In this document: positions 19,314 through 34,730 of the stretch, one piece after another
Numbering within the stretch: the first letter of the stretch is position 1
Layout of the letters: the number at the start of each line of letters is the position of its first letter
Assembly (NCBI GenBank): GCA_947494325.1
Contig: CANLUS010000003.1
Span: 62,001-126,000, forward strand
Length of the DNA stretch: 64,000 nucleotides
Reading direction: 5' to 3'
DNA from: an uncultured Flavobacteriaceae bacterium
GTDB taxonomy: Bacteria; Bacteroidota; Bacteroidia; Flavobacteriales; Flavobacteriaceae
Position numbers and translations under genes: made by a program
Notes under the pieces: generated by a model
What the model saw: the letters and a program-made list of their open reading frames with translations, nothing else
What the model was told of the DNA's origin: nothing
Database searches by the model: none

Positions 19314-19895
19314 TTATAAAATACCTTCTAGTCTAATGTGTTGTAAGAGCATAATGGTCTTACCATCTTTAATTTCACCACTTTTGATCATGTCAAGTGC
19401 TTTGTCGATAGTTAGTTCTAAGACGTCAATTTCTTCTTGCTCATGTTCTAAACCACCGCCATCGGTAGTTTTCATGTTTTCTTCATACTCAGCAATGAAA
19501 AAATGTATAATTTCGGTAACCGAACCTGGTGACATATATGACTCGAATACTTTGGTAACATCCGAAATTTTATAACCCGTTTCTTCTTGTGTTTCTTTTT
19601 TAATACAATCTTCTGGATTGTCTTTATCTAAAAGCCCGGCACAAGTTTCAATAAGCATTCCCGTTTCGTTCCCATTAATATAGGTGGGTGCTCTAAATTG
19701 CTTTGTAAGAATGACGTTTTTTGACTGCTTATTATAGAGAAGAATGGTAGCTCCGTTACCCCTATCGTAGGCCTCGCGTTGTTGCGGTTGCCATTCTCCT
19801 TTTTTAGTTAAATATTCGTAATGTACTTTGTTTAAGGTGTACCAATTATCCGAAAGAACTTCTATTGATAGGTTTCTAACCTTTTCATTTTTCAT
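19314..19895 (-). CDS. Nudix hydrolase, NudK-like (GDP-mannose / nucleoside diphosphate sugar pyrophosphatase)
   Basis: A 193-residue cytoplasmic Nudix protein resembling NudK, which hydrolyses nucleotide sugars such as GDP-mannose. The ETCAGLLD stretch, the Nudix helix (KKETQEETGY) and the MSPGSVTEIIHFFIAEY segment are characteristic. The first glutamate of the consensus Gx5Ex7REUxEExGU is an asparagine here (GLLDKDNPED), with a glutamate two residues later; the metal-binding EE pair is intact. It is the last gene of a leftward group with two DUF1080 genes and a TIM-barrel isomerase, spacing 9 bases, so a role in sugar turnover is likely. Confidence 0.85.
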   Translation of the reverse strand: MKNEKVRNLSIEVLSDNWYTLNKVHYEYLTKKGEWQPQQREAYDRGNGATILLYNKQSKNVILTKQFRAPTYINGNETGMLIETCAGLLDKDNPEDCIKKETQEETGYKISDVTKVFESYMSPGSVTEIIHFFIAEYEENMKTTDGGGLEHEQEEIDVLELTIDKALDMIKSGEIKDGKTIMLLQHIRLEGIL

Positions 19896-19904
19896 AAGAT
19901 TGCT

Positions 19905-20660
19905 TTACAGTTCTCTAACCCAAATATTACGATAACTAACGCCACTATTATCATTATGGTCTTGCAATTTTAAAGGTCCTTTTCCATGTGGATTATTTTT
20001 AGGAATGCCAATGTATTCAGTGGTTCCGTAAATGACCACATGATCTTGTATTAAGACTCCATTGTGGAGCACGGTTACTGTAGCTGATTTTGTCTTACGA
20101 CCAATTTGATCAAACTTAGGAGCATGATAAATAATGTCATAAGTTTGCCATTCTCCCGAAGGTTTGGAAGCATTCACCAATGGGATGTGCTGTTTATATA
20201 CAGAACCAGCCTGCCCGTTAGCATATGTTATATTGTCATAATTATCAAGAACCTGAACTTCATAGCGCCCTTGAAAAAAGACACCGCTATTTGCCCTATT
20301 TTGCCCTTTGGCCCTTGGAGTAGCTGGGTTTCTCCATTCGATATGTAATTGGATATCACCAAAGTTTTGCTTTGTTTGAATATCTCCCGACCCATTTTTT
20401 ACGGTCATGCTACCATCCTTATTAAGGATCCATTTTGCAGCCAAAGAATCACGAGCACCTACCCAATTATCTAGATTAGTACCGTCAAAAAGTACAATGG
20501 CATCAGAAGGAGCCGAGTTCATTTTTCCAGTGGTAACTTTAGCAGGAATGGGCTCATGTACCTCGGTTGTTTTCGGTTTTGTATAATCTTTTTCCTGAGC
20601 ATCCACCATACCAACTAGCATGAAAATAAAAGCAATAAACAGTAGGTGTTTTTTTGTCAT
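19905..20660 (-). CDS. DUF1080 protein (3-keto-disaccharide hydrolase family), secreted
   Basis: A 251-residue exported protein with a signal peptide ending near MVDAQ. The family signatures are AIVLFDGTNLDNWVG at the start of the jelly-roll, the middle NSGVFFQGRYEVQVLDN and the end GPLKLQDHNDNSGVSYRNIWVREL. The DUF1080 family (Pfam PF06439) is now linked to cleavage of glycosides whose sugar has first been oxidised at C3. The absence of a lipobox suggests a soluble periplasmic form. It lies two bases from a second, lipoprotein copy and belongs to the same leftward operon as a TIM-barrel isomerase, which fits a 3-keto-sugar pathway. The exact substrate is unknown. Confidence 0.85.
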   Translation of the reverse strand: MTKKHLLFIAFIFMLVGMVDAQEKDYTKPKTTEVHEPIPAKVTTGKMNSAPSDAIVLFDGTNLDNWVGARDSLAAKWILNKDGSMTVKNGSGDIQTKQNFGDIQLHIEWRNPATPRAKGQNRANSGVFFQGRYEVQVLDNYDNITYANGQAGSVYKQHIPLVNASKPSGEWQTYDIIYHAPKFDQIGRKTKSATVTVLHNGVLIQDHVVIYGTTEYIGIPKNNPHGKGPLKLQDHNDNSGVSYRNIWVREL

Positions 20661-20662
20661 AA

Positions 20663-21406
20663 TTATAGCTCTTTAATTTTGATGTTTTTGTACCAAACTT
20701 TGTCAGAATGATCTTGCAAACCTATATGTCCAGTGCGGTACTTGGCAAAACCTTCCCAACCTTTGAATTTAGAATTTTCTACCATCTTGTCCCATGCCTC
20801 TCCATGCACTGGAAACGTTATTACCTCAGTGCCGTTCATGGATACTTTTCCTTCGTTCGTTTCGTGATTGATCTCCAAAACACAAAGGTTCCATTCTCCG
20901 GCTGGCTTTACATGTTCATCAGGACACGCAATCATGTCATATAATGAGCCGGCTTTATGAGTTCCATTAGCAACCTTCGCATCGGCATGCAAAGCATTGT
21001 CAAGTACTTGAATTTCGGCACCTGTTTGGTAGGCTTCTGGAAATTTTTCATCTTCATGAACTCCCCAAAAAATACCACTATTACCTCCTTCAGAAATTTT
21101 CCATTCCAACGATAATATGAAATTGGTAAATTTTTGTTTTGAAATAATGTTCTTACCGCCTTTATCACCAGGAGTAAAAGCCATAGCACCATCTGCGTCG
21201 ATGGTCCATTCTTTATGAATACTATCTGTTAAATAGCCACGCCAATTATCGAAAGAACTACCATCAAATAGGGCAATCCACTCAGCTTCTTTTTGTACAA
21301 TTTCATTCGTATTCTCTTCAGTTTCGTTAGTTGCCGTAGTTGTTTCACCTTTCTTGCATGCACCAAGAATGAGTAGCGAGCATACGACGAAAATTACTTT
21401 TTTCAT
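20663..21406 (-). CDS. DUF1080 lipoprotein (3-keto-disaccharide hydrolase family)
   Basis: A 247-residue lipoprotein (MKKVIFVVCSLLILGAC) of the same jelly-roll family as its downstream neighbour: WIALFDGSSFDNWRG, GGNSGIFWGVHED, GAEIQVLDN and the end GHIGLQDHSDKVWYKNIKIKEL. It should act in the periplasm or on the cell surface on 3-keto-glycosides or 3-keto-disaccharides. It differs from the secreted copy in its mature sequence, so the two are likely to have different substrates. It sits ten bases behind the TIM-barrel gene and two bases before the other DUF1080 gene, in one transcription unit that starts near 22546. Confidence 0.85.
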   Translation of the reverse strand: MKKVIFVVCSLLILGACKKGETTTATNETEENTNEIVQKEAEWIALFDGSSFDNWRGYLTDSIHKEWTIDADGAMAFTPGDKGGKNIISKQKFTNFILSLEWKISEGGNSGIFWGVHEDEKFPEAYQTGAEIQVLDNALHADAKVANGTHKAGSLYDMIACPDEHVKPAGEWNLCVLEINHETNEGKVSMNGTEVITFPVHGEAWDKMVENSKFKGWEGFAKYRTGHIGLQDHSDKVWYKNIKIKEL

Positions 21407-21416
21407 GATTTATGTT

Positions 21417-22469
21417 TTAAATACCTAATATTTTTTTCAATTGCTCTTTGTCTACTTCTGCGCCAGCAAAATCATCAAAAGCTTTTTCAGTTGCTTCAAT
21501 GATATGATTTTGAATAAACTGTGCGCCTTCACGGGCCCCTTGCTCAGGACTTTTGATACAACATTCCCATTCCATTACAGCCCAAAGATCACATCCATAT
21601 TGGGTTAATTTGGAGAAAATAGTTTTAAAGTCAATCTGTCCGTCTCCCGGAGATCGGTACCTTCCAGCTCTATCTCCCCAGTCATTATACCCACCGAATG
21701 CACCTTTTTTACCGGTTGGATTAAATTCAGAATCTTTTACGTGAAACGATTTTATAAACTCATGGTAGTGATCGATATATTCGATATAATCTAATTGCTG
21801 CAGAACAAAATGCGACGGGTCATACAAAATATTGACACGTTTATGATTACCCGTTGCTTTTAAAAATCGTTCAAAAGTATCGCCATCATGGATATCTTCT
21901 CCAGGATGAACTTCATAACAAACATCAACACCTTGTTCATCGAAGTGATTTAAAATTGGTAACCATCTTTTGGCAAGTTCTTCAAATCCCATTTCTACAA
22001 GACCAGGAGGTCTCTGTGGCCAAGGATGCCAAGTATGCCAAAGTAGAGCGCCAGAAAAAGTAGCGTGTACATTCAATCCTAAATGCTTACTTGCAGTCGC
22101 GGCATTTTTTACAGTTTGTACAGCCCATTCAGTACGTGCTTTGGGATTTCCTTTACAATTATCTGGAGCAAAATTATCAAACATTAAATCATAGGCTGGA
22201 TTCACAGCTACTAATTGTCCTTGAAGGTGTGTCGAAAGTTCTGTAATTTCTAATCCGTAAGAATTAATTTTACCCTTGAGTTCATCACAATAAACTTTGC
22301 TTTCAGCAGCAAGATCTAAATCAATCAATCTTGATTCCCAAGTAGGTATTTGAATACCTTTATATCCTAAATCACTTGCCCATTTGCAAAGACCACTTAA
22401 AGAATTGAAAGGTGGTTTGTCATCCATAAATTGCGCCAAAAATACAGCTGGTCCTTTAATAGTTTTCAT
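21417..22469 (-). CDS. TIM-barrel sugar isomerase/epimerase (AP-endonuclease 2-like), cytoplasmic
   Basis: A 350-residue xylose-isomerase-like TIM barrel without a signal peptide, so cytoplasmic. The metal-binding acidic and histidine residues of the fold can be placed in CYEVHPGED, LYDPSHFVLQ, SFHVKDSEF and the C-terminal MEWECC. Such proteins isomerise or epimerise (keto)sugars and are frequent partners of Gfo/Idh dehydrogenases. It is the first gene of the leftward operon with two DUF1080 genes and a Nudix gene. A consensus TATATTTG promoter element lies about 80 bases upstream on the minus strand. Confidence 0.85.
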   Translation of the reverse strand: MKTIKGPAVFLAQFMDDKPPFNSLSGLCKWASDLGYKGIQIPTWESRLIDLDLAAESKVYCDELKGKINSYGLEITELSTHLQGQLVAVNPAYDLMFDNFAPDNCKGNPKARTEWAVQTVKNAATASKHLGLNVHATFSGALLWHTWHPWPQRPPGLVEMGFEELAKRWLPILNHFDEQGVDVCYEVHPGEDIHDGDTFERFLKATGNHKRVNILYDPSHFVLQQLDYIEYIDHYHEFIKSFHVKDSEFNPTGKKGAFGGYNDWGDRAGRYRSPGDGQIDFKTIFSKLTQYGCDLWAVMEWECCIKSPEQGAREGAQFIQNHIIEATEKAFDDFAGAEVDKEQLKKILGI

Positions 22470-22521
22470 ACTATAAAATATTATGTCGTTATGTTTTTAT
22501 TGGTTCTTTTTTAAGAATTTA

Positions 22522-22540
22522 ATCCTATATTTATAGGGAT
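22522..22540. promoter_or_regulatory. Palindromic site in the divergent promoter region
   Basis: The sequence ATCCTATATTTATAGGGAT is an imperfect palindrome. A shorter relative (ATCCTTATGTAGGA, 22559-22572) follows 37 bp on. Both lie between the divergent TIM-barrel and GMC genes, and the minus-strand promoter element lies between them. Binding of an unknown regulator is inference. Confidence 0.4.
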
Positions 22541-22551
22541 AAAATCGCTAT

Positions 22552-22559: not shown

Positions 22560-22613
22560 TCCTTATGTAGGACTCTAAAGATAGAAATAAGAATAGAATT
22601 AAAAAAATATATC

Positions 22614-24317
22614 ATGGGTCAAGAAATAGAATATGACGCAATCGTTGTAGGTACAGGAATAAGCGGAGGTTGGGCCGCAAAAGAGCTTTGTGAGAAAGGA
22701 TTAAAAACTCTTGTATTAGAACGAGGACCAATGGTAGAGCATTTAAAGGATTATAAAACCATGAATGATGACCCTTGGGATTATCCTTTACGGGGTGAGT
22801 TGTCAAAAGACGATTTAGACAAGTATCATATACAGAAGCGACTGGGATGGGCACCAAAAGAGGATTGCAAACATTTTTTTGTCAACGACCTAGAGCATCC
22901 CTATGTAGAAACAAAGCGTTTTGATTGGATCCGTGGCTATCAAGTAGGAGGGCGGTCGTTGACTTGGGGGCGACAAAGTTATCGCTGGAGTGATCTTGAT
23001 TTTGAAGCTAATAAAAAAGAAAATATCGGGATAGATTGGCCATTAAGATATAAGGATATCGCACCTTGGTACGACCAGGTTGAAGAATATATTGGCGTGA
23101 GTGGAGAATCTTTAGGGTTAAAACAATTACCTGATGGGAAATTTTTGCCGCCAATGGAATTACATTGTCCCGAAGAAGACTTGAAGAAAGCTATGGCCGA
23201 AAAATTTGAGGATGAACGCGTTTTAACAATAGGAAGAGTAGCTCATTTAACAGGAAACACTTCCGACAAGGAAGGAAGAGGACCATGTCAATATAGAAAT
23301 AGGTGTTGGAGAGGTTGCCCTTACGGAGCTTATTTTAGCAGTAATGCGTCGACCCTGCCTGCCGCTGAACGAACAGGAAATATGACCTTGAGACCAAATT
23401 CTATTGTTCATGAAGTTGTGTATGATGACGCAATGAAAAAGGCGACCGGAGTGCGTGTCATTGATGCTCAAACGAAAGAAAAATTAACTTTTAAAGGAAA
23501 GATCGTTTTCTTATGTGCTTCGGCAATGGCGTCAGTAGGGATTTTATTACAATCTAAGTCTGATCGTTTTCCAAATGGTTTAGGTAACGATTCAGATGCT
23601 TTAGGTCGCGGTATTATGGACCATCATTATAAGCTAGGTGCCTATGCAAAAGTAGAGGGGCATTTAGAAAGTTACACCAAAGGGAGAAGACCTAATGGTT
23701 TTTATATTCCTCGCTTTGTAAATTTAGATGAAAAGACGAAAAAAGATGGATATGTACGAGGTTTTGGTTATCAAGGAGGTGCGAGCCGTGAAGATTGGTC
23801 TGAATCGATTGCGGAAATGGGATATGGGGAAGAACTCCAACGAGAAATTCTAAAACCAGGTGGGTGGCAAATAGGTGTTACGGGATTTGGAGAGTTTTTA
23901 CCGTATGACGATAATAGAGTAACCTTGAGTCCCGACAAAAAAGATCAATGGGGTTTACCGCAACTGGCGTTTGATGTCGAACTCAAAGAGAATGAATATA
24001 ACATGCGTGCAGATATTAAAAAAGAAATTGTTGCGATGTTTGAAGCAGCAGGATTCAAAAACGTGCAAGCTTATGAAGAGACACATGGCCCTGGATTAGG
24101 TATTCATGAAATGGGTGGCGCAAGAATGGGATCAGATCCTAAAACCTCTGTCGTAAATAAAAATAATCAAATACACGCAGTGCCGAATGTTTATGTAACC
24201 GATGGAGCTTTTATGTCATCTTCAAGTTGTGTGAACCCTTCTCTGACGTATATGGCTTTTACTGCCAGAGCAGCAAATCATGCCGCAACAGAATTTAAAA
24301 AAGGCAAGTTTTCTTAA
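22614..24317 (+). CDS. GMC-family flavoprotein dehydrogenase (probable glucoside 3-dehydrogenase catalytic subunit), copy 1
   Basis: A 567-residue FAD enzyme. The N-terminal VGTGISGGWAAKEL is the dinucleotide-binding motif. GIHEMGGARMG and NPSLTYMAFTARA near the C-terminus carry the catalytic histidine and asparagine of the pyranose-oxidase/gluconate-dehydrogenase branch. Cys225, Cys231 and Cys235 (CQYRNRCWRGC, C-x5-C-x3-C) match the cysteine spacing that binds a [3Fe-4S] cluster in cytochrome-linked FAD glucose dehydrogenase. Expected reaction: oxidation of a sugar C3-OH to a 3-keto sugar, with electrons to a cytochrome. It has no signal peptide and no subunit-3 gene next to it, unlike copy 2 at 29208. 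It stands alone between two leftward operons and shares a terminator with the convergent Gfo/Idh gene. Confidence 0.85.
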   Translation: MGQEIEYDAIVVGTGISGGWAAKELCEKGLKTLVLERGPMVEHLKDYKTMNDDPWDYPLRGELSKDDLDKYHIQKRLGWAPKEDCKHFFVNDLEHPYVETKRFDWIRGYQVGGRSLTWGRQSYRWSDLDFEANKKENIGIDWPLRYKDIAPWYDQVEEYIGVSGESLGLKQLPDGKFLPPMELHCPEEDLKKAMAEKFEDERVLTIGRVAHLTGNTSDKEGRGPCQYRNRCWRGCPYGAYFSSNASTLPAAERTGNMTLRPNSIVHEVVYDDAMKKATGVRVIDAQTKEKLTFKGKIVFLCASAMASVGILLQSKSDRFPNGLGNDSDALGRGIMDHHYKLGAYAKVEGHLESYTKGRRPNGFYIPRFVNLDEKTKKDGYVRGFGYQGGASREDWSESIAEMGYGEELQREILKPGGWQIGVTGFGEFLPYDDNRVTLSPDKKDQWGLPQLAFDVELKENEYNMRADIKKEIVAMFEAAGFKNVQAYEETHGPGLGIHEMGGARMGSDPKTSVVNKNNQIHAVPNVYVTDGAFMSSSSCVNPSLTYMAFTARAANHAATEFKKGKFS

Positions 24318-24336: not shown

Positions 24337-24355
24337 ATTTTGATTTGATCGTTTG

Positions 24356-25492
24356 TTAATCTAGTTGTACCCAGGTATTGCCAGATTTATGAGAAGCGAC
24401 CGTGCTCTCTATAAAATTAAGTCCTCTAACGCCATCCACAATTGTTGGAAATTCACCATCGTTATATTCTTCTCCTCGAATAGCCCGCGCAACACCTAAG
24501 TAAATATTTGCCATCGAATCAAAAATACCTTCAGGGTGTCCTGCAGGTAGCTTGGTACCATCTAACGATAATTTTGAATTATAAGCATGTCCTGGTTTAT
24601 AAACTTGAGTCGGTTCAGTATCGCTCATTTTATATAAGAAGTTAGGTCGTTCCTGCTCCCATCTAAATGATCCTTTTTCTCCATAAATGGCAATCGCCAA
24701 ACCATTTTCTTCACCTGTGGCAACTTGACTCGCGCGAATGACTCCTTTTACATGGTCACTCATTCTAATCAATGTAGTTCCGTCAACATCCATTTTATTA
24801 TCTTCATATAGATAATTAAAATCACATAAAATAGATTTAATTTGAAGTCCTGTGGTATATTCAACTAAATTAAAGGCGTGTACACCGATATCACCAATAC
24901 ATGAGCTAATTCCAGCTTTGGCTGGGTCTAATCTCCAAACGGTTGAGCGTTTTTCTTTATCATGAATGATTTCATTAATCCAACCTTGATAATAACGAGC
25001 ATCTACTTTATGGATTTTTCCAAGCTCTCCTGCTTTGATCATCTCTCGCATTTGGCGTACCATAGGGTATCCCGTATAGGTATGTGTTAAGGCGAAAACG
25101 GTACCTGCCTTTTGATGGGCTTCTTGTAAAATTTTAGCCTCGTCTAACGTCGTTGTCATGGGTTTTTCACAAATGACATGAAAACCATTGTCCAACAATT
25201 TTTTAGCCATTGGAAAGTGTAAGAAATTTGGTGTTAAAATAGCACAAACCTCAATGCGCTCTTCCTTTGGAAGTTTCATTTCCTCTTCAATAAAAGTGTC
25301 AAAATCTTTATACACTCTATTCGTTGGAATATCAATTTCTTTTGCAAAGGCTAAATTCTGTTCAAAATCTGGATTGAAAACAGCGCCTGTAATTTGATAA
25401 TTGTCATTAATGTGTGATGCTACACGATGAAGTACTCCTATCAGTGAGTCTCCACCTCCGCCTAAAATTCCAAGTTTAATTTTTTTTGGCAT
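24356..25492 (-). CDS. Gfo/Idh/MocA-family oxidoreductase, cytoplasmic
   Basis: A 378-residue NAD(P)-dependent sugar dehydrogenase. The N-terminal LGILGGGGDSLIG is the Rossmann turn, VICEKPMTT holds the family EKP lysine, and GDIGVHAFNLVEY carries the catalytic aspartate/histidine. No signal peptide is present, so it works in the cytoplasm, probably reducing or oxidising a 3-keto sugar delivered by the MFS permeases encoded directly upstream in the same operon. It is the last gene of the leftward group running from 28961. Confidence 0.9.
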   Translation of the reverse strand: MPKKIKLGILGGGGDSLIGVLHRVASHINDNYQITGAVFNPDFEQNLAFAKEIDIPTNRVYKDFDTFIEEEMKLPKEERIEVCAILTPNFLHFPMAKKLLDNGFHVICEKPMTTTLDEAKILQEAHQKAGTVFALTHTYTGYPMVRQMREMIKAGELGKIHKVDARYYQGWINEIIHDKEKRSTVWRLDPAKAGISSCIGDIGVHAFNLVEYTTGLQIKSILCDFNYLYEDNKMDVDGTTLIRMSDHVKGVIRASQVATGEENGLAIAIYGEKGSFRWEQERPNFLYKMSDTEPTQVYKPGHAYNSKLSLDGTKLPAGHPEGIFDSMANIYLGVARAIRGEEYNDGEFPTIVDGVRGLNFIESTVASHKSGNTWVQLD

Positions 25493-25504
25493 ATTATAAT
25501 TTTT

Positions 25505-26674
25505 CTAAGTTGTCGTTTTGTTTCTTTTTTTCATATAGACATACAATCCTATGAAGGCAAAAATGAGTATTGCTGGAAGAATTGACATCGTTCTTAAAGC
25601 TTCTATAGTACCGCCATCATCCATGAGTCTACCCATAATCGGCAATACGATTGACACAGAAAACATACCTGCTCCGCCCATCACTGAAAGTCCGAGTGCT
25701 CCCGTTTCTGGTAAATATTCGGCAACAAAGCCTAACATCGTAGGCCAGAAAAAAGTAATACCTACTGCGAACACACCCGCTGCCGCAAACGTCATTGCGC
25801 CGCTCGTTATGGTCATGAGCCACAATCCGATAAAGGTAAAAATCGCCGAAAATAACAACATTCCTGAAGGCTGTAATCTATGGATTACTTTTCCTGCGAA
25901 AGCTCTTCCAAAGGCCATGATTCCATTTATAAATACCAGTACCAACAAAGGAACTGTTCCTGATTCTTTCAATAGAGATTCTATACGTTGTGTTGTGCCT
26001 AATTCTGAAGCGGCCGTTAGAAGCATACAGAAAACCATAAAAATAAATAGAGGTTTTCCTAAACTTGACCACATTTTACTACTACTCACGCCCATTTGAA
26101 CTCGTTCTGTCACTGGAAATTTTTGCCCAAAAAATAGGAACGCATAAATAATTAACGGAATGAATAATAGTGCAACCATTATTTGCCAACTGAGTCCGGC
26201 AACATCCATCACCAGCCATCCTAGGATACCCCCAATCGCAATTCCTCCGGGAAACCACACATGAAATCGATTCAACATTTTGGTTTTATTTTCAGGATAC
26301 ATCGATGCGATCATTGGGTTTAGCGCGGCTTCTACTAATCCATTACCGATTCCAACAAAAAGTGTTGCTGTAAACAGTGATGTCATATCTTTGGCCATGA
26401 TGGTCCAAACAATTCCAATGGCATGCATAATAAATGCTGCCCAGGTAATTTTTTTTATGCCTAATGTATCTACTAATGGACCTCCGATAATCATCGCAAT
26501 CGTAAAGCCATAAAATGCAGGTCCAAATGCATATCCAATTTGTTCTAGCGTCAATCCAACACCTTCAGGGCCGAAAACGGTCTCAAGTCTGGCTCGTATG
26601 GCAAAAGTCATTGAAGTTACCAGCAACGCCATACACGAGGCGATAAAAAGTCGGTTTTTGTTTATGTTCTCCAT
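25505..26674 (-). CDS. MFS transporter
   Basis: A 389-residue, roughly 12-helix major facilitator. The start RLFIASCMALLVTSMTFAIRA, the GGPLVDTLGIKK loop (the position of MFS motif A) and the FHVWFPGGIAIGGILG segment after helix 5 resemble the fucose/sugar permease branch. It lies 12 bases before the Gfo/Idh gene in reading direction, which suggests it imports the substrate of that enzyme. The exact sugar cannot be read from the sequence. Confidence 0.8.
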   Translation of the reverse strand: MENINKNRLFIASCMALLVTSMTFAIRARLETVFGPEGVGLTLEQIGYAFGPAFYGFTIAMIIGGPLVDTLGIKKITWAAFIMHAIGIVWTIMAKDMTSLFTATLFVGIGNGLVEAALNPMIASMYPENKTKMLNRFHVWFPGGIAIGGILGWLVMDVAGLSWQIMVALLFIPLIIYAFLFFGQKFPVTERVQMGVSSSKMWSSLGKPLFIFMVFCMLLTAASELGTTQRIESLLKESGTVPLLVLVFINGIMAFGRAFAGKVIHRLQPSGMLLFSAIFTFIGLWLMTITSGAMTFAAAGVFAVGITFFWPTMLGFVAEYLPETGALGLSVMGGAGMFSVSIVLPIMGRLMDDGGTIEALRTMSILPAILIFAFIGLYVYMKKRNKTTT

Positions 26675-26717: not shown

Positions 26718-27947
26718 TTATGTTTTATATGTTACTTTTTCATTTTTAAATACAAGCGCAAAAAGCAAGAAAACGACACCGGCAAAAATGGCTGGGAAAA
26801 TCCAAATATCTTGCCAGCTGTGCAGACCTTCTTCAACTAAATTTTTGTCCACTATTTGACCAGCCACCCAAAATCCTATGAGCATACCGACGCCATAAGT
26901 CGCTAAGGTTATCAAGCCTTGAGCAGCACTTTTTACTTTCTCACCTGCTTTTGAATCGGTATAAATTTGTCCTGAAACAAAGAAAAAATCATAGCAAATT
27001 CCATGCAGCGCAATACCCACTACAAGCATAAAAAATAAATCGCCTCCATTCCCGTAGGCGAACAAAAGATATCTAATACCCCATGCTAACATCCCTACTA
27101 AAATTGTCTTTTTAAAGCCATACTTTTTGAAGAAAAATGGCAATAACAGCATAAAAAGCACTTCAGACATTTGACCTACCGAAGCCCATGCCGTCGAATT
27201 TTCAACCTTGTACTCGGTTAAAAACGGACTAATATTCTGATAATAGAAAGCCAACGGAATACAAATCAATACTGACGATAAAAAGAAAATTAAAAAATTT
27301 CTGTCTTTCAATAATTTCAAGGCATCAAGGCCTAAGATATCAGACAAACCTACTTTTTCACCTTTAGCAACACTTGGAGGCGTTTTCGGTAAGGTAAAAC
27401 TAAATACTCCGAGAATAGCAGAAGCAATTGCTACCATTAAAAACGTATTTGATAGCATCCCGTTTCCTATATTTTCAATAGAATCCCATTTAAAAACAAA
27501 ACTAATAATGAGCCCGGCAAGTATCCAACCAATCGTTCCAAATACCCGTACAAAGGGAAACTGTTTTGCAGGATCATTCATTTGGTTAAACGAAACAGAA
27601 TTTACCAACGCAAGCGTAGGCATGTAGGCAATCATATATCCTAAAACATAAGGATAGAACACACTAAATTCCGTCGTTTGAGACATTAAATACATTAGAA
27701 CGGCCCCTACTAAATGTAGAATACCCAGGATTTTTTCGGCATTAAAAAAGCGATCTGCAATCAATCCAATAATGAACGGTGCAATAATAGCACCCCAAGA
27801 TTGTGTAGAGTAGGCCATGGCTGTTTCTGCTCCGCTAGCACCTAAGTTGTTGCCTAGAAAAGACCCCATAGTCACGAACCAACCTCCCCAAATAAAGAAT
27901 TCAAGGAACATCATAAATGAAAGTTGAAACTGTGTTGATTTTTTCAT
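26718..27947 (-). CDS. Nucleoside:H+ symporter-family MFS permease
   Basis: A 409-residue permease resembling the NupG/XapB nucleoside:proton symporter family. FFIWGGWFVTMGSFLG at the N-terminus and the PFIIGLIADRFFNAEKILG loop are typical. In Bacteroidota this family often accompanies sugar-phosphate-isomerase and Gfo/Idh genes, so it may carry a sugar derivative or glycoside rather than a nucleoside. It is the second gene of a four-gene leftward operon, 18 bases behind the TIM-barrel lipoprotein gene. Confidence 0.85.
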   Translation of the reverse strand: MKKSTQFQLSFMMFLEFFIWGGWFVTMGSFLGNNLGASGAETAMAYSTQSWGAIIAPFIIGLIADRFFNAEKILGILHLVGAVLMYLMSQTTEFSVFYPYVLGYMIAYMPTLALVNSVSFNQMNDPAKQFPFVRVFGTIGWILAGLIISFVFKWDSIENIGNGMLSNTFLMVAIASAILGVFSFTLPKTPPSVAKGEKVGLSDILGLDALKLLKDRNFLIFFLSSVLICIPLAFYYQNISPFLTEYKVENSTAWASVGQMSEVLFMLLLPFFFKKYGFKKTILVGMLAWGIRYLLFAYGNGGDLFFMLVVGIALHGICYDFFFVSGQIYTDSKAGEKVKSAAQGLITLATYGVGMLIGFWVAGQIVDKNLVEEGLHSWQDIWIFPAIFAGVVFLLFALVFKNEKVTYKT

Positions 27948-27965: not shown

Positions 27966-28961
27966 TTATTTTAATTTTTCAGTTGCACTCAATAATAATT
28001 TTTTTGTGGCCAGAATGCCTTCTTTTTCTCCTAGAACATCTCCTTCATATTCAACACCAATAAACCCTGTAAAACCAGCGTCTTTTACAATCTGTAACAT
28101 TTTTACATAATCTATTGCGGTTTCATTCCCATTTGCATCAAAATCATGAGACTTGGCACTCACACCTTTCGCAAATGGCATGAGTTCTTCAGTACCTTTA
28201 TAGATATCATATTGTTCAATACAATTTCCACCCCATCGCTCACCACTATCTCTTTTTACACAGAAGTTACCAAAATCAGGTAGCGTACCGCAATTTGGTA
28301 AGTTGATGGCTTTCATAACTTCAACAACCTTCGCTGCATCAGATGATAGTCCACCATGATTTTCAACAATTACATTGATATTCTTTGTAGCAGCATATTG
28401 CGCTAAACGTCCCATCCCATCGACAGAATTGTCATGCCATACTTGAGGATCTTTTTCAGCATCACCTCCAAATAAGTTCACACGTACCGATGAGCAACCT
28501 AACTCTGCTGCCGCATCGACCCACATCGAATGTCTTCGAATAGCTTCATCTCGCTCAGCTTTATCACTTACGGACAAGTCTCCTTCATGATCGATCATGA
28601 TTAAAACATTTTGTATATCGTGCTCTTCACTTCTCTTTTTAAGCTCATTTACGAGGCTATCCAGGCTCTCTTGTTCCTTACCTTCTTCTAAAGGATACAA
28701 CTGACTCACATATTCAATTCCTTCAAAGCCTAACTCTTTAGCCTTTTTAGCAAAATCTAAATTTGATAACGTCTTATCATCGCGAATAGCCTTGTGAAAA
28801 GACCATTGAGCTAATGATAGTTTAAAAAAGGGCTTTGTAGTTTCGGCAGCAGCTGTCATTTTTTCTTCACTTTTTTGAACTTCTTTACATGTTATTAGAA
28901 GTGTTGAAATAGATAGTATTAAAAATAAGATTTTAGTACTTTTAAATGCGTAAGATTTCAT
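27966..28961 (-). CDS. TIM-barrel sugar isomerase/epimerase lipoprotein
   Basis: A 331-residue xylose-isomerase-like TIM barrel with a lipoprotein signal (STLLITC), so it acts in the periplasm or on the surface, unlike the cytoplasmic paralogue at 21417. The fold's metal-binding positions can be placed at VIVENHGG, GTLPDFGNF, KSHDFD and GVEYEGD. It heads a leftward operon with two permeases and a Gfo/Idh dehydrogenase. It probably epimerises or isomerises an oxidised sugar in the periplasm before import; the reaction is not proven by sequence. Confidence 0.85.
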   Translation of the reverse strand: MKSYAFKSTKILFLILSISTLLITCKEVQKSEEKMTAAAETTKPFFKLSLAQWSFHKAIRDDKTLSNLDFAKKAKELGFEGIEYVSQLYPLEEGKEQESLDSLVNELKKRSEEHDIQNVLIMIDHEGDLSVSDKAERDEAIRRHSMWVDAAAELGCSSVRVNLFGGDAEKDPQVWHDNSVDGMGRLAQYAATKNINVIVENHGGLSSDAAKVVEVMKAINLPNCGTLPDFGNFCVKRDSGERWGGNCIEQYDIYKGTEELMPFAKGVSAKSHDFDANGNETAIDYVKMLQIVKDAGFTGFIGVEYEGDVLGEKEGILATKKLLLSATEKLK

Positions 28962-29043
28962 GGAATTTTAAAAATTTAAATTTTTTTAAAGTTAGTTTTA
29001 CTTTTAGAGAAATTAAATGAGTTGACTAAAAAATATACTACAT

Positions 29044-29053
29044 CGTTTTCGTT
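29044..29053. promoter_or_regulatory. LacI-operator-like half site between divergent operons
   Basis: CGTTTTCGTT matches ten consecutive bases of the duplicated operator at 1278 and 1309. It lies in the 246-bp gap between the divergent TIM-barrel lipoprotein operon and the GMC/subunit-3 operon. The left half of the palindrome is not conserved, so it is only a weak candidate. No perfect TAnnTTTG promoter was found in this gap; TAAATTTA is the nearest on the plus strand. Confidence 0.3.
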
Positions 29054-29207: not shown

Positions 29208-30911
29208 ATGAATACAGAACAAGCATATGATGCGATCGTCATCGGTACTGGAATTAGTGGAGGCTGGGCAGCGAAAGAACTTTGTGAAAAAGGCCTGAAA
29301 ACATTAGTTTTAGAAAGAGGACGAATGGTAAGACATATTGATGATTATCCAACCGCTAATGATGACCCTTGGGATCTTGAGTTGAGAGGTCAAACTACTG
29401 AAGAAGATAAAAAGACACAAGAAAAGCAGGCACGAACGGGCTATACGACTGCAGCTGCAAGTAGGCATTGGTTCGTGAATGATTTAAAGCATCCTTATAA
29501 TGAAACGAAACGTTTTGATTGGATGAGAGGTTATCATGTAGGTGGACGCTCTATTATGTGGGGAAGACACTGTTATCGATTGAGTGATTTAGATTTCGAA
29601 GCGAATAAAAAAGATGGTCATGGTGTAGACTGGCCCATTCGCTATAAAGATATTGCACCTTGGTATGATAAAGTTGAGGAGTATATTGGTTTAAGTGGGG
29701 AAGCTATGGGGCTACCTCATTTGCCAGATGGTAAGTTTTTACCTCCAATAGAAATGAATTGTGTAGAAGAGCACTTGAAAAAAAGTATGTCAGAAAATTA
29801 TACCGATAGAGTTTTGACCGTAGGTAGAATTGCACATATTACTACAGGTGATAAAGAATTTGAAGGTAGAGGTAAATGTCAATTTAGAAATAGATGTATA
29901 CGTGGTTGTCCTTTTGGAGGATATTTTAGTAGTAACTCATCTACATTACCAGCTGCTGAGCGTACGAAAAACATGACTCTGAGACCTAATTCTATAGTAC
30001 ATGAAATAATTTATGACGATACTCAAAAGTTGGCAACTGGAGTTAGAGTTATTGATACAGAAACCAAAGAAAAATTGGTGTTTAATGCGAAAATTATATT
30101 CTGTTGTGCATCTGCGATTCCAACGGCGTCGATATTGTTACAATCAAAGTCGGAGAGATTCCCGAATGGACTAGGAAATGATTCTGGTGAACTGGGTCAT
30201 AATATTATGGACCATCATTTGGGTGCAGGAGCTCACGGTAAAACAAGTGAGTATAAAGATAGATATTATAAAGGTAGACGACCAGGCGGCCTTTATTTAC
30301 CAAGATTTAGAAATTTAGGAGATAAAGCAACAGAGAAAAAGGAATTTATTCGAGGATATGGTTATCAAGGAGGCGCAGGAAGAGGAGATATTTCTGAATT
30401 GGTTGCGGAAGCCGGATATGGAGAACAATTAACCAAGAATATTCTAGAGCCAGGAAGTTGGAGTATTACCCTATTCGGATTTGGTGAATGCCTACCGTAT
30501 CATGATAATAAAATGACCCTAGATTATGAGAAATTAGATGATTGGGGGTTACCGACAATTACCTTTGATGCTGAATGGAAAGAAAATGAATATGAAATGC
30601 GTAAGGATATGATCGAGCAAGCCGTTGATATGTTAGAGAAAGGTGGCTTTTCGGATATCCAAACAATTGATAGAGTGCATGCTCCAGGTATTGGAATACA
30701 TGAAATGGGTACGGCGCGTATGGGTAGAGACCCGAAAACATCGGTATTAAATGAGAACAATCAGATTCATACCGTACCAAATGTATATGTAACAGATGGT
30801 GCTTGTATGACATCTGCGGGATGTACAAATCCTTCGATTACCTATATGGCGTTAACTGCAAGAGCAGCTGATCATGCCGCGAAACAATTTGAAAAAATGA
30901 AACAAGCTTAA
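29208..30911 (+). CDS. GMC-family flavoprotein dehydrogenase (probable glucoside 3-dehydrogenase catalytic subunit), copy 2
   Basis: A 567-residue close paralogue of the GMC protein at 22614, with the same FAD motif (IGTGISGGWAAKEL), the same C-x5-C-x3-C cluster (Cys224, Cys230, Cys234 in CQFRNRCIRGC) and the same catalytic end (GIHEMGTARMG, NPSITYMALTARA). It has no signal peptide but is followed after four bases by a Tat-signal subunit-3 gene. Known GMC/subunit-3 pairs are exported together on the small subunit's Tat signal. Likely role: periplasmic oxidation of glycosides to 3-keto-glycosides. It heads a five-gene operon with DUF1080, TIM-barrel and Gfo/Idh genes. Confidence 0.9.
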   Translation: MNTEQAYDAIVIGTGISGGWAAKELCEKGLKTLVLERGRMVRHIDDYPTANDDPWDLELRGQTTEEDKKTQEKQARTGYTTAAASRHWFVNDLKHPYNETKRFDWMRGYHVGGRSIMWGRHCYRLSDLDFEANKKDGHGVDWPIRYKDIAPWYDKVEEYIGLSGEAMGLPHLPDGKFLPPIEMNCVEEHLKKSMSENYTDRVLTVGRIAHITTGDKEFEGRGKCQFRNRCIRGCPFGGYFSSNSSTLPAAERTKNMTLRPNSIVHEIIYDDTQKLATGVRVIDTETKEKLVFNAKIIFCCASAIPTASILLQSKSERFPNGLGNDSGELGHNIMDHHLGAGAHGKTSEYKDRYYKGRRPGGLYLPRFRNLGDKATEKKEFIRGYGYQGGAGRGDISELVAEAGYGEQLTKNILEPGSWSITLFGFGECLPYHDNKMTLDYEKLDDWGLPTITFDAEWKENEYEMRKDMIEQAVDMLEKGGFSDIQTIDRVHAPGIGIHEMGTARMGRDPKTSVLNENNQIHTVPNVYVTDGACMTSAGCTNPSITYMALTARAADHAAKQFEKMKQA

Positions 30912-30914
30912 ATT

Positions 30915-31511
30915 ATGGATAGAAGAAAAGCACTTAAGGGGTTAGGGTTATCAATGGGTTTTATGGTAGCTACACCAACCGTAATAGGATTACTTCAAAG
31001 TTGTAAAAATGATGCCGAAAAAGTGGCGCCTTGGGTTCCATTGTTTTTTACGGCAGATGAAGCAACCGTCGTTAAAAGTTTGACAAATTTAATATTACCA
31101 AGATCTGGAGATTTACCAGGGGCGAGTGATGTAAATGTAACTCAGTTTCTTGATTTGGTTTCTGCTAAGGTAAGTAATAAAGAAGATCAAGAAGAATATA
31201 AAGCTGGAATTGGAGCTGTTATAAATGCTCTTGGGAAACCTGTTGCAGAGGTGACTACTGAAGATTATGACGCTTTATTATCGAAATACTTAAAGGCAAC
31301 TAAAGAAGAAATGAAGAGTTATGGCGAAAGTGAAGATCCCGTTTTTGGCACACTTATGAACCTACGTGGTAGCACGATCTGGGCTTATAAAACAAGCGAA
31401 AAAGTTGGAAAAGAAGTATTGGCCTATGACCCTATTCCTGGTGAGCAGAAAGGATGTATTTCTGTGGAAGAAGCAACGGGCAAATGGGGAGGTAGAGCTT
31501 GGTCTTTATAA
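30915..31511 (+). CDS. Gluconate 2-dehydrogenase subunit 3-family protein (Tat-exported partner of GMC)
   Basis: A 198-residue small subunit of membrane-linked FAD sugar dehydrogenases. The N-terminus MDRRKALKGLGLSMGF carries a twin-arginine signal and continues to a lipobox-like GLLQSC, so it may be a Tat lipoprotein. The mature part (FFTADEATVVKSLTNLILP, DLPGASDVNVTQFLD) is typical of the family. It is thought to chaperone and export the flavoprotein subunit. It follows the GMC gene by four bases and precedes a DUF1080 gene. No cytochrome c subunit gene is in the window. Confidence 0.9.
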   Translation: MDRRKALKGLGLSMGFMVATPTVIGLLQSCKNDAEKVAPWVPLFFTADEATVVKSLTNLILPRSGDLPGASDVNVTQFLDLVSAKVSNKEDQEEYKAGIGAVINALGKPVAEVTTEDYDALLSKYLKATKEEMKSYGESEDPVFGTLMNLRGSTIWAYKTSEKVGKEVLAYDPIPGEQKGCISVEEATGKWGGRAWSL

Positions 31512-31528
31512 AGAGTTTTAACAATGTT

Positions 31529-32347
31529 ATGAAATACCTAAGGTTATTTGTTTTATGTGTAGGTGCATCATTAATGATGCAGTGCAAAAAAAGCAATAAC
31601 GTAACTAAAAAAGAAGTTGAACCCATTTCAGAAGAATGGGTTCAGCTGTTTAATGGAAAAGATTTAGACGATTGGATCGTAAAAATAAAAGGATATCCAT
31701 TAGATACTAATATTCATAATACTTTTAGGGTTGAAGACAGCGTCATTAAGGTGTCTTATGACGGTTATGAAACCTTTAACAATTCTTTTGGGCATTTATT
31801 TTATAAGAAACCTTTTACGAATTATCGATTAAAATTACAATATCGATTCGTTGGTGAGCAGGCTCCCGGAGGTGAAGGTTGGGCAATGAAAAATAGTGGA
31901 GTTATGCTTCATTCACAAGCGCCAGAAAGTATGGAGCTGGATCAGGCGTTTCCAATTTGTTTGGAAGCTCAATTTTTAGGCGGACTGGAAAAAGGATTTG
32001 AAAGACCTTCAGGAAATCTCTGTACACCAGGAACGCATGTGGTAATGAAAGATTCATTAGTTACTGATCATTGTATAAATTCGATTTCAGGGACCGTTTA
32101 CAACGAAGATTGGGTAGATGTTGAGCTTCTGGTACTAAATGATTCTTTAATCTCGCATATGATAAACGGAAAAGAAGTTATACGATATTCAAAAGCTGTT
32201 TATGGAGGCGAATTTTTAACCGAGACAGAAGAATGGCAGTCAAAAGTAGGAAAACCGTTGAGTTCTGGATATATTGCCTTACAAAGTGAGAGTCACCCTG
32301 TAGAATTTAGAAATATAGCGTTGTTGGAATTGAAAGACATTAAATAA
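31529..32347 (+). CDS. DUF1080 lipoprotein (3-keto-disaccharide hydrolase family), third copy
   Basis: A 272-residue lipoprotein (MKYLRLFVLCVGASLMMQC). Family signatures: WVQLFNGKDLDDWIVKIKG, MKNSGVMLHSQAPESM, PICLEAQFLGG and the end SGYIALQSESHPVEFRNIALLEL. The ATG at 31529 is chosen over the in-frame TTG at 31499, which would overlap the previous gene. Placed directly behind the GMC and subunit-3 genes, it should cleave the 3-keto-glycoside that the dehydrogenase makes. It belongs to a longer DUF1080 subtype than the two copies at 19905 and 20663. Confidence 0.85.
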   Translation: MKYLRLFVLCVGASLMMQCKKSNNVTKKEVEPISEEWVQLFNGKDLDDWIVKIKGYPLDTNIHNTFRVEDSVIKVSYDGYETFNNSFGHLFYKKPFTNYRLKLQYRFVGEQAPGGEGWAMKNSGVMLHSQAPESMELDQAFPICLEAQFLGGLEKGFERPSGNLCTPGTHVVMKDSLVTDHCINSISGTVYNEDWVDVELLVLNDSLISHMINGKEVIRYSKAVYGGEFLTETEEWQSKVGKPLSSGYIALQSESHPVEFRNIALLELKDIK

Positions 32348-32354
32348 TCCTCAT

Positions 32355-33278
32355 ATGAAACGAAGAAATTTTATTAAGAAATCAATGGTCGCAAGTTCTG
32401 CAGCTATGGTGAGTACTAATATATTTTCTGCAGTACCTGACAAAGAAGCATTTCGAGAAAATTTTGATTTTAAATTGAATTTCGCTCCACATGACGGTAT
32501 GTTTAAGCATTTAGGGGGTAGTGATATTTTGGATCAATTGAATTTTATTGCAAGTCAGGGGTTTAAGTCTTTTGAGGATAATGAAATGCGGAATCGTCCT
32601 GTCGAATTACAGCTTAAGATCGCAAAACGTATGCAAGATAAAGGTATCGAAATGGGTGTTTTTGTAGCGCATAAGATTTATTGGTCAGAACCTAATCTGG
32701 CCAGTGGCGATAGTGAAAAAAGAAAAGAGTTTTTACGTGATATCAAAAATTCAGTTGAGGTTGCGAAAAGAGTGAATGCCAAATGGATGACTGTGGTTCC
32801 AGGTCACGTAGATTTGGATCAAAATATGGCTTATCAAACTGAGCATGTTGTTGAAACACTCAAACAAGCTGCAGCCATTTTGGAACCACACGGAATTATA
32901 ATGGTCTTGGAACCCTTAAATTTTAGAGATCATCCAGGATTGTTTTTGACCGAATCGCCACAAGCTTATCAAATTTGTAAAGCAGTGAATTCACCATCAT
33001 GCAAAATACTCTTCGATATTTACCATCAGCAGATTCAAGAGGGAAATTTAATTCCAAATATTGAAAAATGTTGGGATGAGATTGCCTATTTTCAGATCGG
33101 GGATAACCCAGGTCGTAAAGAACCAACAACGGGCGAAATAAACTATAAAAATGTATTTAAATATATCCATTCTAAAGGCTTTAAAGGGATTTTAGGAATG
33201 GAACACGGCAATTCTATTACCGGTAAAAAAGGAGAAGAAGCTGTTCTTAAGGCGTATAAAATGAGTTCAAATTTTTAA
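32355..33278 (+). CDS. TIM-barrel hydroxypyruvate isomerase-like protein with Tat-type signal
   Basis: A 307-residue protein with a twin-arginine-like leader (MKRRNFIKKSMVASSAA) and a hydroxypyruvate-isomerase-like TIM barrel: VLEPLNFRDHPG, ILFDIYHQQIQEGNLI and FQIGDNPGRKEPTTGEINY are diagnostic, and the C-terminal GMEHGNS supplies the last acidic ligand position. It should act on a small keto-aldose or keto-sugar in the periplasm. It is the fourth gene of the GMC operon, seven bases behind the DUF1080 gene. Its exact substrate is unknown. Confidence 0.85.
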   Translation: MKRRNFIKKSMVASSAAMVSTNIFSAVPDKEAFRENFDFKLNFAPHDGMFKHLGGSDILDQLNFIASQGFKSFEDNEMRNRPVELQLKIAKRMQDKGIEMGVFVAHKIYWSEPNLASGDSEKRKEFLRDIKNSVEVAKRVNAKWMTVVPGHVDLDQNMAYQTEHVVETLKQAAAILEPHGIIMVLEPLNFRDHPGLFLTESPQAYQICKAVNSPSCKILFDIYHQQIQEGNLIPNIEKCWDEIAYFQIGDNPGRKEPTTGEINYKNVFKYIHSKGFKGILGMEHGNSITGKKGEEAVLKAYKMSSNF

Positions 33279-33287
33279 TCATTAGTT

Positions 33288-34730
33288 ATGAGTGCAAATC
33301 ACAAATCTAGTAGACGTTCATTTATTAAAAAATCAGCCGTGGCTTTCGCGGGTATTAGTATTGTTCCGAGGCATGTCTTAGGGCAAGGATTTATTCCCCC
33401 GAGTGATCAATTAAATATTGGTGTTATTGGTGGTGGAGGTAAAGGGTATGGAGATGCAGTCAATGCATGGAATAACGGAGCCTCTAATATTACTGCTATT
33501 TGTGATATTGATTGGGGGATGGCATCTCGAGCGTTTAAGAAGTTTCCAAAGGCAAAAAAGTTCAAGGATTTTCGGAAAATGTTCGATCAAATGAAAGATA
33601 TTGATGCCGTAACCATTTCTACACCAGATCATACGCATGCCGTTGCAGCTATGGCAGCCATGAAATCAGGGAAGCACGTATACGTTCAAAAGCCCTTGAC
33701 GCACAGCATTCATGAGGCTCGAGTCTTAACGGAAGCCGCTAGAAAATATAAGTCAGTCAGTCAGATGGGAAATCAAGGTGCTTCGGGCCCTGGAGTGCAG
33801 CAAATGATAACATGGTTTGACGAAGGTAAAATCGGAAAAGTAAGTACTGCCCATGTTTGGACGAATAGACCCGTTTGGCCGCAAGGTATTGCAACACCTA
33901 CAGATAAGCCTAAAATGAAAGATGGATTGGATTGGGATTCTTGGGTAGGACCAGCACAAATGGTAGACTATCATCCGTTATATCATCCTTTTGCATGGAG
34001 AGGTTGGTGGAATTTCGGTACGGGTGCATTGGGCGATATGGGATGTCATTTGATTGACCCTCCTTTTAGAGTTTTAGGCTTAGGTTATCCTACAGAAGTT
34101 GAAAGTAGTGTAGGTGCAATTTTTACTAAAAACTGGACTCCAGAATATTTGCCAGAATCTTGCCCTTCGTCATCTAGAACACAGTTGAAATTTCCGGCAA
34201 CGAAAAAGAATCCAACTGAATTAACCTTGACCTGGACAGATGGCGGTTTACGTCCGTTCCATCCAGATTTGATTCCAGCTGATCACCCAATTGGAGATGA
34301 AAATAGTGCCAATGGAGTTATTATGATCGGTGAAAAAGGAATCATGACTTGCGGAACTTATGGAGCAAACCCTAAAATTTATTTCAATGACGGAAGTGTT
34401 TTGGTTGCTGATTTAAAAACATCTAAAAATGCATTACCGGAGCATGGTCACCAGGCGTCATGGGTAGAAGCTTGTAAAGAAGGATTCGGTAAAAGTAAGC
34501 ATAAGGCATTGACATCATCCTTTGATTTTGCTGGCCCTTTAACAGAATCGATTTTAATGGGTAATTTAGCTATTCGAAGCTATATGCTAAGAGAACAAGG
34601 ATCAAAAGGAGGTCATGAATACCCTGGTAGAAAGAGGTTACTTTGGGATGGAGTAAATATGAAAATTACGAATTTCGAAAAGGCCAACCAATTTGTAAAG
34701 AGAGAATATCGAAAAGGTTGGACCCTTTAG
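33288..34730 (+). CDS. Gfo/Idh/MocA-family oxidoreductase with Tat signal
   Basis: A 480-residue dehydrogenase with a Tat leader (SSRRSFIKKSAVAFAGIS) and a tightly bound-cofactor Rossmann fold (LNIGVIGGGGKGYG, YVQKPLTHS in place of EKP, GDMGCHLIDPP). Periplasmic Gfo/Idh proteins of this subtype keep their NAD(P) and act as self-contained oxidoreductases or isomerases on sugars. It closes the rightward operon that begins with the GMC enzyme. With the cytoplasmic Gfo/Idh at 24356 it gives the pathway one oxidoreductase per compartment. Confidence 0.9.
   Translation: MSANHKSSRRSFIKKSAVAFAGISIVPRHVLGQGFIPPSDQLNIGVIGGGGKGYGDAVNAWNNGASNITAICDIDWGMASRAFKKFPKAKKFKDFRKMFDQMKDIDAVTISTPDHTHAVAAMAAMKSGKHVYVQKPLTHSIHEARVLTEAARKYKSVSQMGNQGASGPGVQQMITWFDEGKIGKVSTAHVWTNRPVWPQGIATPTDKPKMKDGLDWDSWVGPAQMVDYHPLYHPFAWRGWWNFGTGALGDMGCHLIDPPFRVLGLGYPTEVESSVGAIFTKNWTPEYLPESCPSSSRTQLKFPATKKNPTELTLTWTDGGLRPFHPDLIPADHPIGDENSANGVIMIGEKGIMTCGTYGANPKIYFNDGSVLVADLKTSKNALPEHGHQASWVEACKEGFGKSKHKALTSSFDFAGPLTESILMGNLAIRSYMLREQGSKGGHEYPGRKRLLWDGVNMKITNFEKANQFVKREYRKGWTL

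Follow-up and report, generated by a model that had tools for sequence, protein, structure and literature searches.

The DNA analyzed here (hereafter "the window") is a 64,000-nucleotide stretch from an uncultured Flavobacteriaceae bacterium (GenBank assembly GCA_947494325.1, contig CANLUS010000003.1). Between positions 19314 and 34730 of the window lies a cluster of genes that probably (ca. 70%, in our estimation) encodes a four-step, non-hydrolytic route for glycosides, in which oxidation, elimination, hydration, and reduction would be distributed over the periplasm and the cytoplasm. A candidate gene for each of the four steps is present in the locus. The evidence that was observed directly consists of gene content, gene order, conservation among relatives, export signals assigned by rule, and the homology of one protein to a hydratase.

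Layout and density of the locus

Fourteen open reading frames (ORFs) are located in this 15.4-kb locus, and they fall into four same-strand groups: timC, kghB, kghA, and nudK (22469-19314, minus strand); GMC1 (22614-24317, plus strand); timL, nupG, mfsA, and gfoC (28961-24356, minus strand); and GMC2, sub3, kghC, timT, and gfoT (29208-34730, plus strand). The gene labels were assigned in the present analysis, and operons were deduced from strand and spacing. The genes, coordinates, and families of the original prediction were all confirmed by family matches; its count of thirteen genes is corrected to 14, as a second GMC dehydrogenase had been overlooked (the two are located at 22614-24317 and 29208-30911).

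The locus comprises 0.4% of the 3.64-Mb genome, and its gene density is far above the genomic background. It contains three of the six genomic copies of PF06439 (DUF1080), three of the five copies of PF01261, two of the three copies of GMC_oxred_C, and one of the two copies of Gluconate_2-dh3. Neither SusC nor SusD, the pair looked for as the mark of a polysaccharide utilization locus, was found among the 14 ORFs; the window's SusC/SusD pair is located outside the locus at 1515-6125 (SusD was identified using Pfam and SusC by eye).

Linkage and conservation

A total of 149 Flavobacteriaceae genomes, including that of the window, were searched with GMC2 (E ≤ 1e-100) and timC (E ≤ 1e-60) as queries; a match to either GMC type was accepted as a GMC. 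A GMC was found in 77 genomes and timC in 71. Both were present in 69 genomes, timC only in 2, GMC only in 8, and neither in 70 (Fisher p = 1.8e-30, with no correction for relatedness). In 62 of the 69 genomes the two genes were found on a single contig, always within 20 kb and in 61 cases within 10 kb; the remaining seven had no timC-GMC pair on one contig.

Two sets of loci were then compared with the window. The "fetched" set contained 80 regions from 68 genomes, mostly the better-scoring GMC places; weaker GMC matches and fragments were left out. A gene was counted as present in a locus of this set on the basis of the best BLASTP match to a window protein at E ≤ 1e-8 with >40% coverage of that protein. 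The "named" set contained 80 loci around timC from Maribacter, Zobellia, Aquimarina, Arenibacter, Flagellimonas, Cellulophaga, and others. The sets share species, both were chosen by similarity to the window and are thus biased toward close relatives, and several loci were truncated at a contig end or at the limit set for the flanks. The fetched loci contained sub3 (78 of 80), timL (62), gfoC (60), timC (57), kghB (50), nupG (49), kghA (29), timT (28), kghC (21), gfoT (19), mfsA (13), GMC1 (8), and nudK (0). The corresponding counts for the 80 named loci were gfoC 76, timL 69, nupG 66, kghB 65, GMC2 64, sub3 60, kghA 59, GMC1 43, timT 31, mfsA 16, kghC 4, gfoT 2, and nudK 2. Seven core roles (kghA or kghB, timC, gfoC, nupG or mfsA, timL, a GMC, and sub3) were all present in 50 of the fetched and 55 of the named loci.

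The recurring gene order was kgh-timC-(GMC1)-gfoC-(mfsA/nupG)-timL against GMC2-sub3. Because this order recurs beside differing sets of flanking genes, it is not merely an inherited position. A very close named locus (L087, also from an uncultured Flavobacteriaceae bacterium) encodes a timC identical to that of the window, and its other labeled genes are 83-96% identical. Over the fetched loci, the median identity to the window was 85% for timC (range 74-90%), 67% for gfoC, 68% for GMC2, and 52% for timL. The original prediction had treated the genes as one linked 3-keto-glycoside route, whose linkage should be detectable in related genomes; co-occurrence and gene order support this linkage, and its conservation favors the locus as a unit.

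The nudK gene (19314-19895, minus strand), the final gene behind timC-kghB-kghA, is the exception. It encodes a NudK-like Nudix hydrolase that matches the GDP-mannose pyrophosphatase NudK equivalog NF011585 at 253.7 bits (cut-off 234). Because it occurs in only 0/80 fetched and 2/80 named loci, nudK is probably a passenger outside the conserved unit. On the equivalog match and this near-absence, the Nudix enzyme was rejected as a member of the pathway, a role it had been given originally.

Cellular compartments

Export signals were scored with simple rules of our own (a hydrophobic N-terminus, a lipobox, or twin arginines) in place of a dedicated signal-peptide program. In the window, signals of the Sec, lipoprotein, or twin-arginine translocation (Tat) type were found on the DUF1080 proteins, sub3, timL, timT, and gfoT, and none was found on timC, gfoC, GMC1, or GMC2. 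The same pattern was present among the relatives. Of the ORFs for exported enzymes, 292 of 295 had a signal (kghA 29/29, kghB 52/52, kghC 21/21, timL 61/62, timT 28/28, gfoT 20/20, and sub3 81/83), compared with 2 of 120 for the cytoplasmic enzymes (timC 0/57, gfoC 2/63). As controls, five flanking gene groups recognized by eye as cytosolic housekeeping enzymes scored 2/94. No signal was detected on either GMC type (GMC1 0/8, GMC2 0/86). The periplasm/cytoplasm split that had been claimed for the window thus holds there and is conserved among relatives.

The hydratase homologue and the cytoplasmic Gfo/Idh protein

The timC gene (21417-22469, minus strand; PF01261) encodes a cytoplasmic homologue of a 2-hydroxy-3-keto-glucal hydratase. 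Its best match in the PDB was 8ro4, which bears that name (E = 5.8e-163, 545 bits), and the alignment runs from end to end (residues 1-350 on 1-349). We take 8ro4 to be AtHYD of Agrobacterium tumefaciens. This full-length match rules out the assignment of timC as an isomerase. Residues E186-x-H188, D217, H243, and E300 are invariant in all 138 aligned rows (the window, 57 fetched, and 80 named sequences; some species occur in both sets). In AtOGE, the site consists of His132, the catalytic His134, Asp163, His189, and, weakly, Glu233, and Glu replaces His132 in C-glycoside enzymes (PMC10628242). By our own matching of positions, the timC residue set resembles this 3-keto-glycoside lyase site.

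The gfoC gene (24356-25492, minus strand; PF01408/PF22725) encodes a cytoplasmic Gfo/Idh protein that is proposed to be a 3-keto-glucose reductase. It is tied to the hydratase homologue in 76 of the 80 named timC loci and in 15 of 20 timC loci outside the family.

Candidates for the cleavage step

The DUF1080 (PF06439) proteins form three groups. Group A (kghA, 19905-20660, minus strand, 146.5 bits) has a Sec signal, and group B (kghB, 20663-21406, minus strand, 143 bits) is a lipoprotein with solved DUF1080 relatives; both are candidate 3-keto-glucoside lyases ("hydrolases"). In Flavobacteriaceae they immediately follow timC in the same orientation. The His of a C-terminal LQDH motif is retained in 30/30 kghA-group and 51/53 kghB-group sequences, including those of the window. 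The divergent group C (kghC, 31529-32347, plus strand, 116 bits) is also a lipoprotein, and it has Glu instead of the conserved His in 22/22 sequences, including that of the window. The kghC ORF opens at a TTG codon at 31499; the start at 31529 is better suited to the signal.

The lipoprotein TIM barrel timL (27966-28961, minus strand) is proposed to be a periplasmic 3-keto-glycoside lyase. A search with its AlphaFold model (pLDDT 91.7) gave 4ovx, a structure of unnamed function, as the nearest fold, and 13 of the hits at ranks 2-16 were DgpC/DfgA-type or other C-glucosyl deglycosidases. Among annotated functions, the model is therefore nearest, by a small margin, to 3-keto-C-glycoside lyases, and timL appears to be lyase-like. 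Residues E200-N-H202, D229, and E304 are invariant (40/40). The lyase-like folds and the E-x-H motif cast doubt on timL as an isomerase.

The Tat-exported TIM barrel timT (32355-33278, plus strand) has E186-P-L188 in place of E-x-H, and this motif, D221, Q247, and E283 are found in 29/29 sequences. It is of the hydroxypyruvate isomerase/epimerase type, as its nearest named relatives are hydroxypyruvate isomerase (TIGR03234, 139 bits; cut-off 353) and, in the fold search, tagatose/psicose epimerases. Thus, of the "three TIM-barrel isomerases" in the original prediction, the label suits timT, but timC is a hydratase homologue and timL is lyase-like by a small margin; the sequence of steps given there, oxidation-cleavage-isomerization, is not supported.

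A second small gene set is present elsewhere in the same genome (contig C1, L170:7091-10004), where two exported DUF1080 genes adjoin a Gfo/Idh gene with an exported-type N-terminus; neither a GMC nor the hydratase was found in that 15-kb stretch. A timL paralogue (41% identity) with a lipoprotein-like N-terminus is located on contig C3 (L167:3127-4152), and the rest of the locus was not found in the surrounding 7-kb stretch.

Dehydrogenases and electron carriers

GMC2 (29208-30911, plus strand), an FAD (flavin adenine dinucleotide) dehydrogenase with FAD glucose and fructose dehydrogenases among its relatives, is proposed to be the large subunit of a glycoside 3-dehydrogenase. The adjacent sub3 (30915-31511, plus strand) encodes a Gluconate_2-dh3 small subunit (PF13618, 77.6 bits) with a twin-arginine (RR) motif for Tat export. 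The predicted GMC dehydrogenase with a Tat partner was thus confirmed as GMC2 and sub3. This is the pairing found in LacABC-type systems, i.e. a GMC large subunit and a small subunit with a Tat signal, and it was matched to Caulobacter LacA/LacC by gene type only. Subunit 3 was the next gene after GMC2 in 82/86 fetched and 60/64 named cases (4 at a locus end).

GMC1 (22614-24317, plus strand; PF05199/PF00732) is 65% identical to GMC2 and has no subunit-3 gene of its own; subunit 3 followed it in 0/8 fetched and 0/47 named cases (2 at a locus end). Three GMC genes from outside the family that had GMC1 as their best match (53-62% identical; L179, L180, L189) do adjoin subunit 3, and the orphan state is therefore a trait of the Flavobacteriaceae GMC1. 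The genome contains three GMC and two subunit-3 genes in total; the third GMC and the second subunit 3 are neighbors on contig C9.

The Tat-exported Gfo/Idh protein gfoT (33288-34730, plus strand; nearest PDB entries 8tdf/8tdh) is a relative of BT_2158. It was rejected as the BT_2158 equivalog (NF058561), as its score of 498.2 bits is under the cut-off of 750. BT_2158 is described as a periplasmic glycoside 3-dehydrogenase on which growth with trehalose, leucrose, and palatinose depends (PMC11300592).

At the GMC2 end of the fetched loci, a cupredoxin was found in 22/80 and a cytochrome c in 6/80. They often occupy the same relative place (e.g. L011 14238-14756, L080 8000-8506), as if they were interchangeable carriers.

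The proposed route and its alternatives

From these data we infer the enzyme activities, operons, electron acceptor, importer cargo, and substrate of the route. In the periplasm, GMC2, exported with the Tat-signal-bearing sub3, would oxidize the glucosyl C3, with a carrier in the periplasm taking up the electrons; gfoT may act there as another oxidoreductase. The DUF1080 proteins and timL would then cleave the 3-keto-glycoside by elimination. The products would be 2-hydroxy-3-keto-glucal, some of which may be hydrated to 3-keto-glucose, and the aglycone or the other sugar. Import would proceed through the NupG-like H+ symporter (26718-27947, minus strand; PF03825, 398 bits), the proposed importer of the unsaturated keto-sugar, and/or through the accessory major facilitator superfamily (MFS) importer mfsA (25505-26674, minus strand; PF07690). 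In the cytoplasm, timC would hydrate the glycal to 3-keto-glucose, and gfoC would reduce this to glucose. Oxidation and elimination are placed outside and hydration and reduction inside because all of the cleaving candidates are exported, and timC and gfoC are the only soluble cytosolic enzymes of the pathway besides GMC1. Alpha-glucosides are slightly favored as substrates because the locus sits inside a maltose/starch region in this lineage.

Several observations weigh against this reading. The full locus is not retained outside Flavobacteriaceae: 20 timC loci from outside the family (20-kb stretches only) contained gfoC in 15 cases, nupG in 10, kghA/kghB in 8, a GMC in 5, and timL in none. 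In the phylum as a whole, timC was present in 57 of 296 genomes. As far as was surveyed, the full locus is a Flavobacteriaceae trait, and the hydratase-Gfo/Idh pair constitutes a wider core, given the 15 of 20 loci with gfoC. The closest solved relatives of gfoC bear no specific function name. In the timL fold search, epimerases (from E = 7e-12) trail the lyases (from 3e-15) closely, and Ser268 (40/40) occupies the strand-7 position at which AtOGE has a metal-binding His; the lyase role of timL is not secured for these two reasons. No family match to a LacB-like cytochrome c was obtained among the 14 ORFs, a set that does not include ORFs of <120 amino acids, and the nearest cupredoxin of this genome is on another contig.

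The same 20 loci, with gfoC and nupG often present, kghA/kghB in only 8, and timL absent, would suit a scheme in which intact 3-keto-glycosides are imported and cleaved in the cytoplasm, with timC acting as both lyase and hydratase and the exported DUF1080 proteins and TIM barrels serving other glycans. The common E-x-H active-site plan of timC and timL is consistent with it as well. However, the second sugar phosphate isomerase of A. tumefaciens (AtHYD, a hydratase on preliminary evidence) was inactive on 3-keto-phlorizin (PMC10628242), and the exported DUF1080 genes of Flavobacteriaceae immediately follow timC in the same orientation. We regard cytoplasmic cleavage as distinctly improbable. 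Hydration may instead be completed in the periplasm, such that 3-keto-glucose is imported and reduced by gfoC and timC only rescues leaked glycal. A 3-keto-O-glycoside lyase of Bacteroides thetaiotaomicron is reported to hydrate the glycal as well, and its variant H275N to be deficient in this activity (PMC13273386). If the DUF1080 proteins here behaved likewise, timC would be partly redundant, and imported 3-keto-glucose is thus a serious alternative; the retention of the C-terminal His in the kghA and kghB groups agrees with it, although the equivalence of this residue to H275 is a guess. Against it, none of the other genes compared reaches the median identity of timC, and timC is retained together with gfoC even in loci that yielded no kgh homologue; both would be odd for an accessory enzyme. 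This version is judged rather unlikely. The notion that the locus is a loose collection of sugar oxidoreductases that are unrelated to each other and adjoin a maltose locus, with no single pathway, draws on the four gene groups with their opposing directions, the differences between relatives in kghC, timT, and gfoT, and the lack of a shared operator motif in the divergent gaps. It is hard to reconcile with a core order that recurs beside differing flanking gene sets and with the strong co-occurrence of timC and GMC (its p-value, as noted, takes no account of relatedness), and we give it very little weight.

Within the four-step, two-compartment route, the export of every cleaving candidate and the cytosolic location of the hydratase suggest that 2-hydroxy-3-keto-glucal may itself be the imported intermediate. 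We tentatively propose, at somewhat less than even odds, that this reactive glycal crosses the membrane, from exported lyases through a dedicated NupG-like symporter to a trap of hydration and reduction, and that GMC1 serves as an oxidase, either sharing sub3 with GMC2 or working in the cytoplasm. If so, glucose would be obtained from many different glycosides via one transporter.

Relation to known systems

The chemistry is already published, and the locus appears to be a Flavobacteriaceae form of a known non-hydrolytic 3-keto-glycoside route. The same four steps have been described for A. tumefaciens (PMC10628242) and for Bacillus smithii, in its levoglucosan Lgd pathway (PMC7676230). The four-enzyme glucoside operon of A. 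tumefaciens (GlycDH, OGE, HYD, Gfo; PMC10628242) likewise features oxidation-elimination-hydration-reduction, with a hydratase-type TIM barrel and a Gfo/Idh reductase. It differs in that the cleaving candidates here are exported DUF1080 proteins and a lipoprotein TIM barrel, and the importers are of the MFS type; a sequence match of the present proteins to AtOGE was not established. In the Lgd pathway the four chemical steps are alike, but the four Lgd enzymes start from levoglucosan dehydrogenase and act on another substrate (PMC7676230).

The lacABC-DUF1080 cluster of Caulobacter, considered with a Pedobacter dehydrogenase in PMC9007349, shares a GMC with a small subunit, an exported DUF1080 protein, a transporter, two "epimerases", and a reductase; what becomes of the 3-keto-sugar was not settled there. 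Compared to it, the present 14 ORFs lack a LacB-like cytochrome and add a lipoprotein TIM barrel and a second GMC. We suggest that one of the Caulobacter "epimerases" may be a hydratase. The BT2157-BT2158 system of B. thetaiotaomicron (PMC11300592, PMC9007349) also combines an exported DUF1080 protein with a BT_2158-related Gfo/Idh protein; here, however, gfoT is below the equivalog cut-off and occurs in only 19/80 fetched and 2/80 named loci, and the core oxidase would be the flavin dehydrogenase GMC2.

GMC enzymes of Flavobacteriaceae have already been proposed as glycoside oxidases: in the relevant section of PMC6950322, one Zobellia GMC clade (AA3) was grouped by a tree with characterized FAD-dependent glycoside oxidoreductases (FAD-GO; 53-58% identity). 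That section is confined to the GMC enzymes and makes no mention of the locus around them, the hydratase, or the compartment split. In the Zobellia loci of our sets (L105, L106, L133), GMC1, which may or may not belong to that clade, is located beside timC. For Maribacter grown on laminarin, one induced sugar phosphate isomerase/epimerase is described, in passages that do not mention the present locus (PMC11345257). Among the literature matches listed (titles and the starts of abstracts, with subscription papers mostly uncovered), no paper was recognized as describing this flavobacterial locus.

Surroundings and regulation

In this lineage the locus is flanked by a sugar MFS gene (17996-19312) and by a LacI/GH65/beta-PGM/GH13 cluster (34817-45815). 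Such flanks are rare: an amyS-like gene was found in 2/80 fetched loci and a sugar MFS gene in 2/80 named loci. In L177 and L179, too, GH65 or amylase-like genes are located close to timC. After the SusC/SusD pair, the window encodes a PAP2 protein and three large FG-GAP/ASPIC-UnbV-like proteins (6194-17940), two of which were identified using Pfam and the third, at 10034, by visual inspection; L015, L018, and L030, as well as L179 and L182 of other families, have similar genes close to the 3-keto locus.

A LacI-type palindrome, CGAAACCGTTTTCG, occurs twice upstream of susC (1515), at 1278-1291 and 1309-1322, and no exact copy was found elsewhere in the window; the LacI regulator at 34817 may therefore act on the SusC/SusD operon. 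No LacI operator common to the 3-keto operons was evident. A guessed general pattern occurred without excess (31 found, 27 expected), and a pattern derived from the palindrome pair gave 16 rows v. 4.6 expected, of which 4 were the pair itself on both strands. One row, a weak match with three mismatches, is located at 29038-29051, in the gap between timL and GMC2. LacI control of the 3-keto operons is conceivable.

Biological implications

The proposed route offers a possible, testable answer to a question posed by the lac/DUF1080 system (PMC9007349), namely the fate of the 3-keto-sugar and the reason for the presence of "epimerases" and a reductase beside the dehydrogenase. The hydratase homologue is present in about half of the sampled Flavobacteriaceae genomes (71/149), in 69 of these 71 together with the proposed oxidase, which suggests that the non-hydrolytic harvest of glucosides is general in this family. 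An inventory of glycoside hydrolases would miss such a route.

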